From Candidatus Rifleibacterium amylolyticum (GTDB lineage Bacteria; Muiribacteriota; Ozemobacteria; Ozemobacterales; Ozemobacteraceae), in assembly GCA_009917695.1 (NCBI GenBank), contig JAACJG010000006.1, positions 62,001-126,000 of the forward strand: a stretch of DNA of 64,000 bases, given 5' to 3'. A program made the translations under genes and the position numbers. The notes beneath the pieces were generated by a model. That model saw only the letters and a program-made list of their open reading frames with translations, did no database searches and had not been told where the DNA came from. Below, in pieces: positions 33,255 to 35,549 of this stretch. The stretch's first letter is position 1; the number at the start of each line of letters is the position of its first letter.

Positions 33255-33287
33255 TGTACCGTTAAGGTTAAACTGGAGGCTGTTGTT

Positions 33288-33707
33288 ATGAAAAAGCTGC
33301 TTTGTCTGATGCTTTTGCTCAACCTGTTTTTAATTACAGGAAACACCCCGTTGTCAGCCGATGCACGGTCTGACTACGAGAACTATGTATCTACCTATCA
33401 GGCCTATCGCAATGCCGTCAACGAAAAGAAGCCGGCCAGCGAAATTCTCGAGCTGCTCGAAACCTATCAAAATGCCAAAGCCGCTTACGAGAATTCTTAC
33501 AACCGGCAAAAAACTCAGACCGCGGTAGAACCTGCTGACGTTCAGACGCAGCCGACCTCGAGCGGCTCGACTGCTACCCGGGTAACTGCTGCTGTTAACG
33601 CGGCAGATACTGAATATTCGGCAGCCACCAGAGCAAAACTCCCGACCGGCCTGCAGAGAATTCTTGACCAGCTCTGGTCAGAACCTGGCCGCAAAAGCCC
33701 TGACTAG
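33288..33707 (+). CDS. N-terminal portion: signal peptide and helical segment
   Basis: 139 residues if translation ends at the TAG. A clear signal peptide is followed by a helical region (YENYVSTYQAYRNAVNEKK, then LELLETYQNAKAAYENSY), a Thr/Ser/Ala-rich linker, and the start of a helical repeat that breaks off at the stop. The abrupt end inside a helix argues that this was part of one longer secreted phospholipase D-like protein. It could still be made as a short periplasmic protein. Confidence 0.6.
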   Translation: MKKLLCLMLLLNLFLITGNTPLSADARSDYENYVSTYQAYRNAVNEKKPASEILELLETYQNAKAAYENSYNRQKTQTAVEPADVQTQPTSSGSTATRVTAAVNAADTEYSAATRAKLPTGLQRILDQLWSEPGRKSPD

Positions 33708-33710
33708 GCA

Positions 33711-35549
33711 ATGAAACTGCTGTCAACCTTTATCGATTCGAACAGCAATTCACAGTATGCTGACCTTGCCCGCTATGAACTGGCCAAAGCTTATGAACTT
33801 CTTAAAGAAGATGCTGCATCGGCCGAGAAAGTACTCAATCAGATTGGCCGCACCAATCCGCACTCGCGTCTTGCCGCACTGGCAAAAGAACGCATCCGCT
33901 TTCTCAATGCCACAAAACAGTATGACCAGTGGAAACAGGCACTTAACAGCAAATACGAAACTTCACGTGAAAGTTATTCAAAATATCTGAACACTTCATG
34001 GCTCGCCTTTCCGGTAAAGGTCACCCGCTGGATCGGCTATGCCGGCAAGCAGTTCAGCTTCGACAAAACCCAGAACGATTATGGCAAGTTCCAGATCTGG
34101 TATGAAGAGCTCGGAGCAAGATTTGCACCGCCGGTGGAAATTACCTTCGACCGTTTCAAGGCGGTCAACAACAGCAGCGATGATAATGCCGAAGTAAGGC
34201 TTGTCTACAGCAATTCTGAGGCATGGTATACACGCTGGAAGGTTCTTAACGAAGCTCGCCAGTCGATCGATGTACAGTATTTCATCATGGACAAGGATAT
34301 TTTCGGCTATTCCATGCTTGGCGTACTTCTCCAGAAAGCTAGAGATGGTCTCAAGATCAGGCTTCTGCTCGACGCCCGCGGCACCAAAAAGCTGACCCGC
34401 AAGCTTCTTGGCCAGGATCTTCTGCAGGAACTGACTGAATACCCCAATGTCGAAGTTAAGACTTTCAATCCAGTTCACAGCAACCTGCTGATGGTCTTCA
34501 AAGACCCACGCAAACTTATCGCCTCCAACCACGACAAAATTATCGTTGTCGATGAAGAATATGCAATCATCGGTGGCCGCAACGTTTCTATGGATTACTT
34601 CCTCGAACCCGCCGACCACCCGGGCGCCTATCGTGACTGCGACGTAATCATCAAGAGCCACGAGATAGCTGAACAGCTCGATTACGCTTTCGACGAAGAG
34701 TTCTCAAAACCGGTCAGTTACTCGATTGCCAAAGAGCTCTGGGGCAATGTCGATATCATGTCAGACTACCTTAAAGCAGGCTTTGATGTGATGAACACCC
34801 ACATCAACAACGAGCGTTTCGTCATGCCGCGCGATGCCAATAAAAAGTATCTCAAAGCCTCAGCCGATTTCCTCAAGGAAATGTCTGGCTACGACAATCT
34901 GCGCGCCTATACCGGATTCGACCCGTTCGCCAATTCGGTAATCGCACCAGTGAAAATCATCGACAAGCATTCGATCAAAGGCCCACGTAACGACATCACC
35001 GATCAGGTTATCCGTTACATCGATGGTTGTCAGAGCGAGATTGTAATCCAGAACCCATACGTCGTCCTCACCGAACGCATGTTCAACGCCCTAAAACGTG
35101 CCGGCAAACGTGGTATTCCGATAAGAATGCACACCAACAGCCCGGCTTCTACCGACAGTCTGGCGACCCAGGCCATGTTTTACGCTGACTGGAAACGCAT
35201 CTTCGCCGAAATACCCAATATTCGCATCTTCGTTTACAAGGGCGCCAACAAGCTGCACGCAAAGAACTGGGTATTCGACCACAAAATCGGCGTAGTAGGC
35301 ACCTACAACCTCGACTATCTGAGCGAAGAGGTAAATTCAGAAGTAGTAGCCGCGATTAAATCGAAAGAATTTGCAGAACAGCTGCGCAGCGGCATTTTCG
35401 ATGACATCGCGATCTCTGACGAATACCAGGTCGGCTACAGCTCAACCGGCGAAATAGAGTCTATCAAAGGCCCTGACGATCTGCCGGGCAAGAACTTCTG
35501 GCTGCTCAAGTTCATCTCCAAGCTGTCTTTCCTCAAAAAGATTATCTGA
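33711..35549 (+). CDS. Phospholipase D-family catalytic portion (cardiolipin synthase-like)
   Basis: 612 residues from the ATG at 33711, three bases after the TAG and in the same frame; there is no convincing ribosome site, so independent initiation is doubtful. It begins inside a TPR-like region, then has two HxK(x)4D motifs near residues 278 and 520 that pair to form one phospholipase D active site (each His attacks or protonates the phosphodiester). The GG.N after the first motif and GTYN after the second are typical of cardiolipin synthase and Nuc-type members. Likely acts on phospholipids or nucleic acid outside the cytoplasm if joined to the upstream signal peptide. Shares a bidirectional terminator with purD. 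Confidence 0.75.
   Translation: MKLLSTFIDSNSNSQYADLARYELAKAYELLKEDAASAEKVLNQIGRTNPHSRLAALAKERIRFLNATKQYDQWKQALNSKYETSRESYSKYLNTSWLAFPVKVTRWIGYAGKQFSFDKTQNDYGKFQIWYEELGARFAPPVEITFDRFKAVNNSSDDNAEVRLVYSNSEAWYTRWKVLNEARQSIDVQYFIMDKDIFGYSMLGVLLQKARDGLKIRLLLDARGTKKLTRKLLGQDLLQELTEYPNVEVKTFNPVHSNLLMVFKDPRKLIASNHDKIIVVDEEYAIIGGRNVSMDYFLEPADHPGAYRDCDVIIKSHEIAEQLDYAFDEEFSKPVSYSIAKELWGNVDIMSDYLKAGFDVMNTHINNERFVMPRDANKKYLKASADFLKEMSGYDNLRAYTGFDPFANSVIAPVKIIDKHSIKGPRNDITDQVIRYIDGCQSEIVIQNPYVVLTERMFNALKRAGKRGIPIRMHTNSPASTDSLATQAMFYADWKRIFAEIPNIRIFVYKGANKLHAKNWVFDHKIGVVGTYNLDYLSEEVNSEVVAAIKSKEFAEQLRSGIFDDIAISDEYQVGYSSTGEIESIKGPDDLPGKNFWLLKFISKLSFLKKII

Follow-up and report, generated by a model that had tools for sequence, protein, structure and literature searches.

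A private in-frame TAG codon in a phospholipase D-like gene of a Candidatus Rifleibacterium amylolyticum draft genome

The interrupted reading frame and its predicted product

The window analysed here is a 64,000-nucleotide stretch of DNA that forms part of contig C6 of the 5.39-Mb draft genome (G000) of Candidatus Rifleibacterium amylolyticum, which is 95.6% complete. It contains a 753-codon frame interrupted by a single TAG (Table 1). The initial annotation described this stop as in-frame, without loss of frame and closely followed by an ATG, and both a re-reading of the sequence and the homology found on either side of the stop confirm that description. The second ATG, at 33711, lies three bases past the stop, with the spacing TAG GCA ATG, and is conserved as an internal methionine in close relatives. 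The GGAGG before the first ATG is likewise present in close relatives (loci L009-L012). No Shine-Dalgarno-like sequence was found in the letters upstream of ATG 33711 (GACTAGGCAATG), in agreement with the annotated lack of a ribosome site for the second ORF. The N-terminal piece consists, in order, of a signal-peptide-like start (recognized by eye), a helical region, a low-complexity linker and the start of a TPR-like region. This piece is 67-68% identical to its counterparts in the same-genus genomes G001 and G002, and the C-terminal piece 84-85%.

Table 1. Coordinates of the interrupted gene and of other features discussed in the text (positions without a contig or locus prefix refer to the window)
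Feature	Location	Strand	Remarks
Full frame, 753 codons	33288-35549	+	ATG 33288 to TGA ending 35549; 1 internal stop, 0 bases lost
Ribosome-binding region of full-length gene, GGAGG	33270..33287	+	retained
N-terminal piece, 139 aa	33288..33707	+	ends at private TAG
Private in-frame TAG	33705-33707	+	Gln codon in G001/G002/G005/G003; stop-free in all orthologs listed
C-terminal piece, 612 aa	33711..35549	+	two PLDc_2 domains, both HKD motifs
Giant ORF, 3678 aa	13669-24705	-	glycine-rich domain
Giant ORF, 4017 aa	48187-60240	+	Ig-like domains
PLD paralog with private TAG	L007, contig C23:30088		Trp codon in G002, G005, G003 and others
PLD paralog with private TAG	L269/L245, C17:107285-108253		Gln codon in G002
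PLD-type gene with mid-domain frame change	L005, C17:135444-136818		frameshift-like
PLD-type gene of G001, two open frames	C180:20079-21402		275 + 271 aa
Solute-binding-protein gene with in-frame TGA	L200:10023-11303; C4:90268	-	345 + 81 aa
MgtE-type frame with in-frame TGA	L125:17287-19140 (C6:223779)		candidate split
Pseudopilin-like tandem pair	L209, C4:267729	-	239 + 244 aa frames

The downstream piece matches the PLDc_2 profile at 116 bits (cut-off 27), with two domains, and retains both HxK(x4)D motifs (HDKIIVVD and HAKNWVFD). The best NCBIfam matches are cardiolipin synthases, the score for TIGR04265 being 119.5 against a cut-off of 290 bits. The protein thus shares its two PLDc_2 domains with HKD motifs with the cardiolipin synthase/phospholipase D superfamily (PF13091, TIGR04265, ClsB NF008427), but it lies far below the cardiolipin synthase cut-offs and has an additional signal-peptide-like start and a TPR-like N-terminal region. 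A link to defence (DISARM DrmC) was rejected, as just one of the PLD domains gave matches, and these were weak and at superfamily level. The locus is best read as a single gene, predicted to encode an exported protein of the two-HKD phospholipase D/cardiolipin-synthase-like type that carries a TPR-like domain at its N-terminus.

A structure was modelled for the intact ortholog of the sister genome G002, with the two pieces of the window gene included in the alignment (mean pLDDT 74.8, pTM 0.75). The model comprises an N-terminal helix that is likely a signal sequence, a helical region at approximately residues 107-178, and the PLD fold. The residue aligned with the stop (135) lies within this helical region, in the first turn of a helix spanning residues 134-146, which supports the earlier reading of one helical repeat running across the stop. 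A sequence search for solved relatives found none, and the best solved-structure matches were phospholipase D 7e0m and the phosphatidylserine synthases 8yr5 and 3hsi, at 12-15% identity.

Elsewhere in the window lie two giant ORFs, which probably encode surface proteins; the one on the forward strand additionally matches a secretion-tail domain below the threshold.

Conservation of the gene among relatives

The alignment of close relatives across the site, which the initial annotation had proposed as a check, shows that none of them keeps the stop. The site is open in 10 of 10 full-length orthologs from named genomes, and no in-frame stop was found in orthologs across a survey of 56 genomes. 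Since the ten full-length orthologs read straight through the site, a chance open frame was rejected. The orthologs of the same genus that span the site are 85% (G001), 84% (G002), 78% (G005) and 71% (G003) identical to the window protein, and all four carry a glutamine codon at the TAG column, one base away from TAG. In most loci that reach far enough, the gene is adjoined by a purD-like gene and a gene for a 529-aa protein, and in several loci clpB with a 186-aa ORF lies upstream of it. This conserved gene order indicates that the relatives are true orthologs. Because every full-length ortholog checked is uninterrupted, the TAG is private to the window genome and does not reflect an ancestral two-gene arrangement; the coupled gene pair that had been listed among the possible causes is hereby refuted as the ancestral state.

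Apart from the stop, the gene is well conserved. With the stop column left out, dN/dS of the window gene is about 0.08-0.09 in comparison with G001 or G002. Beyond the stop, pN is 0.086-0.087 relative to G001 and G002, which falls within the range of other pairs (0.061 for G001-G002 and 0.121 for G002-G005), and there is no sign of prolonged decay. The downstream sequence would look the same whether the stop arose by recent mutation or by error, or if the gene still functioned. Together with the retention of both active-site motifs, the low dN/dS suggests that the TAG is either recent or an error.

Stop-codon usage and other broken genes in the genome

The initial annotation considered genome-wide recoding of TAG unlikely, which agrees with all lines of evidence obtained here. 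Release factor 1 (RF1) is complete with its GGQ motif. Among the 45 tRNAs found, none has a CUA anticodon, although Ile-GAU and Ala-UGC are also missing and the set is therefore slightly incomplete; the suppressor tRNA proposed as a check was thus not detected, leaving amber suppression unsupported. PylS gave a sub-threshold match only, with nothing above the cut-off. As already noted for the window, TAG serves as a normal stop, both for clpB and for the ORF whose last base is 25884. Over the stretches read for stop usage (1.8 Mb of the window genome and 0.8 Mb of G002), TAG terminates 156 of 1376 genes (11.3%) and 79 of 547 genes (14.4%), respectively. Where a stop is followed by another coding stretch in the same frame, it is TAG in 11 of 106 cases, which is its normal share, so that an excess of TAG at such in-frame junctions was rejected. 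Nine of these 11 junctions look like ordinary gene ends; of the remaining two, one lies in the window gene and the other in the contig C23 paralog of the PLD family. These are the only two TAGs inside genes in the 1.8 Mb, one at a glutamine and one at a tryptophan site. Genome-wide recoding of TAG was rejected on the evidence of the tRNAs, the intact RF1, the PylS score, the use of the stop codons and the number of in-frame junctions. Furthermore, nothing unusual was found in the RNA structure around the stop (z -0.97), no known RNA element was found at the stop, and the literature yielded nothing specific on stop codons in Riflebacteria.

The window gene is not the only broken member of its family. 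The window genome contains eight genes with PLDc_2 domains, four of which are broken, three by TAG and one apparently by a frameshift, whereas all seven PLD genes of the sister genome G002 are intact. The three TAGs replace two glutamine codons and one tryptophan codon, and their flanking codons differ (GAC-TAG-GCA, AAA-TAG-GGC and GGT-TAG-ATC). The gene with the frame change has its nearest relatives in G012 and G008 (83-86%), both open and both from other genera of the family, and its matches in G001, G002 and G005 reach only about 50% or lower. Since the nearest relatives belong to other genera, this gene may have been acquired. In G001, a PLD-type gene on contig C180 appears as two open frames, which suggests that the family is also eroding in other parts of the genus.

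Given codon use alone, about 64% of the stops created by transitions are expected to be TAG, which puts the probability of three TAGs out of three at about 0.3. Moreover, a solute-binding-protein gene that forms a 430-aa open frame in both G001 and G002 is split by an in-frame TGA in the window genome, showing that nonsense changes in this genome are not restricted to TAG. On these two grounds, the exclusive use of TAG in the three PLD genes was rejected as a sign of recoding. Two further arrangements were observed. An MgtE-type magnesium transporter is a candidate split, in which an in-frame TGA separates 164 aa of upstream sequence from the MgtE part. In addition, two near-identical pseudopilin-like genes follow each other in tandem without a change of frame, with a TAG and a short gap between them.

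Origin of the stop codon and known parallels

Four causes had been put forward for the stop, and these fare differently. The best supported is an ordinary, recent nonsense allele at a glutamine codon of a single gene, to which we assign a probability of roughly two in three. It is favoured by the relatives being open throughout, by the glutamine in the four closest of them and by the conservation of the rest of the gene. According to this explanation, the glutamine codon would have changed recently to TAG, and the change would be carried in the sampled population, possibly as a minority allele. RF1 would terminate translation at the TAG, yielding an exported 139-aa fragment without either catalytic motif, and the allele is consequently predicted to be null or nearly null. 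We infer both that the TAG is a true base, not an artefact of assembly, and that the gene product does not function. The other broken PLD paralogs would fit relaxed constraint on a redundant family.

An error in the consensus or base calling of the draft genome, with real cells carrying an intact gene, is less likely. A single base separates the TAG from a sense codon in an otherwise well-conserved gene, and spurious internal stops are known from draft assemblies (PMC11017572). However, errors would be expected to spread evenly over genes, yet half of the PLD genes are broken, while 60 ABC_tran and 77 response-regulator domains are all free of internal stops. In addition, 176 pairs of orthologs shared with G002, amounting to 80.8 thousand codons, contain no true internal stop other than that of the window gene, the remaining stops in this comparison being gene ends or mis-extended starts by our own reading. 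Further nonsense breaks affect two of the seven other PLD genes, compared with two candidate splits among 1368 other genes (Fisher p = 1.3e-4, in a post hoc comparison that covers roughly one third of the genome, with contig C17 read in part). That the breaks concentrate in a single family favours genuine loss in a redundant family over random base-call error, and argues for relaxed constraint on it or for its selected loss.

A more far-reaching variant, for which the chances appear slim, is that in-frame TAG codons are silencing the exported PLD genes of this lineage collectively, or keeping their expression low. It draws on the private TAGs in three of the eight PLD genes, whose frames are otherwise conserved, and on the apparent frameshift in a fourth. 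Such a pattern could result from selection for loss, for instance where a phage or predator exploits these proteins, or from read-through regulation specific to the family.

Read-through of the TAG by amber suppression or at a leaky stop, giving a reduced and possibly regulatory amount of full-length protein, is very improbable. The preserved downstream sequence and active-site motifs and the same kind of stop in three PLD genes would agree with it, and frequent read-through of in-frame stops has been proposed for bacteria (PMC7918605). Against it stand the tRNA, RF1 and PylS results, the use of TAG, which is neither avoided as a terminator nor enriched at in-frame junctions, the differing residues and contexts of the three stops, the absence of the stop from every relative and the unremarkable RNA structure. 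Least probable is termination followed by reinitiation at ATG 33711, which would produce a catalytic protein of 612 aa that lacks a signal peptide. The spacing of TAG and ATG suits coupling and the methionine is conserved, but there is no Shine-Dalgarno sequence before it, the orthologs all form one chain, and the resulting protein would stay in the cytoplasm with an incomplete helical domain. Reinitiation could nevertheless occur at a low level.

Taken alone, the stop matters little, beyond the risk of mis-annotating a broken gene as two genes, the second without a signal peptide. If the cluster of broken PLD genes is real, a redundant family of envelope enzymes in Riflebacteria would be under relaxed or changed selection, and three natural amber sites would be available for read-through testing.

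The phenomenon itself is already known, and the window gene is another example of it. Belinky et al. 2021 (PMC7918605) described short-lived CAG-to-TAG stops in bacterial genes that are under purifying selection; those polymorphisms likewise consist of a lone TAG in place of CAG, with dN/dS well below 1 and open relatives. However, the stop illustrated in that study is common to several genomes, whereas the stop in the window gene is private and accompanied by breaks in sister paralogs. Spurious pseudogenes and internal stops that arise from assembly error have also been described (Cooley and Wright 2024, PMC11017572), and these similarly show one stop inside a gene that is normal in all other respects, but the breaks in the window genome differ from them in clustering in one gene family.
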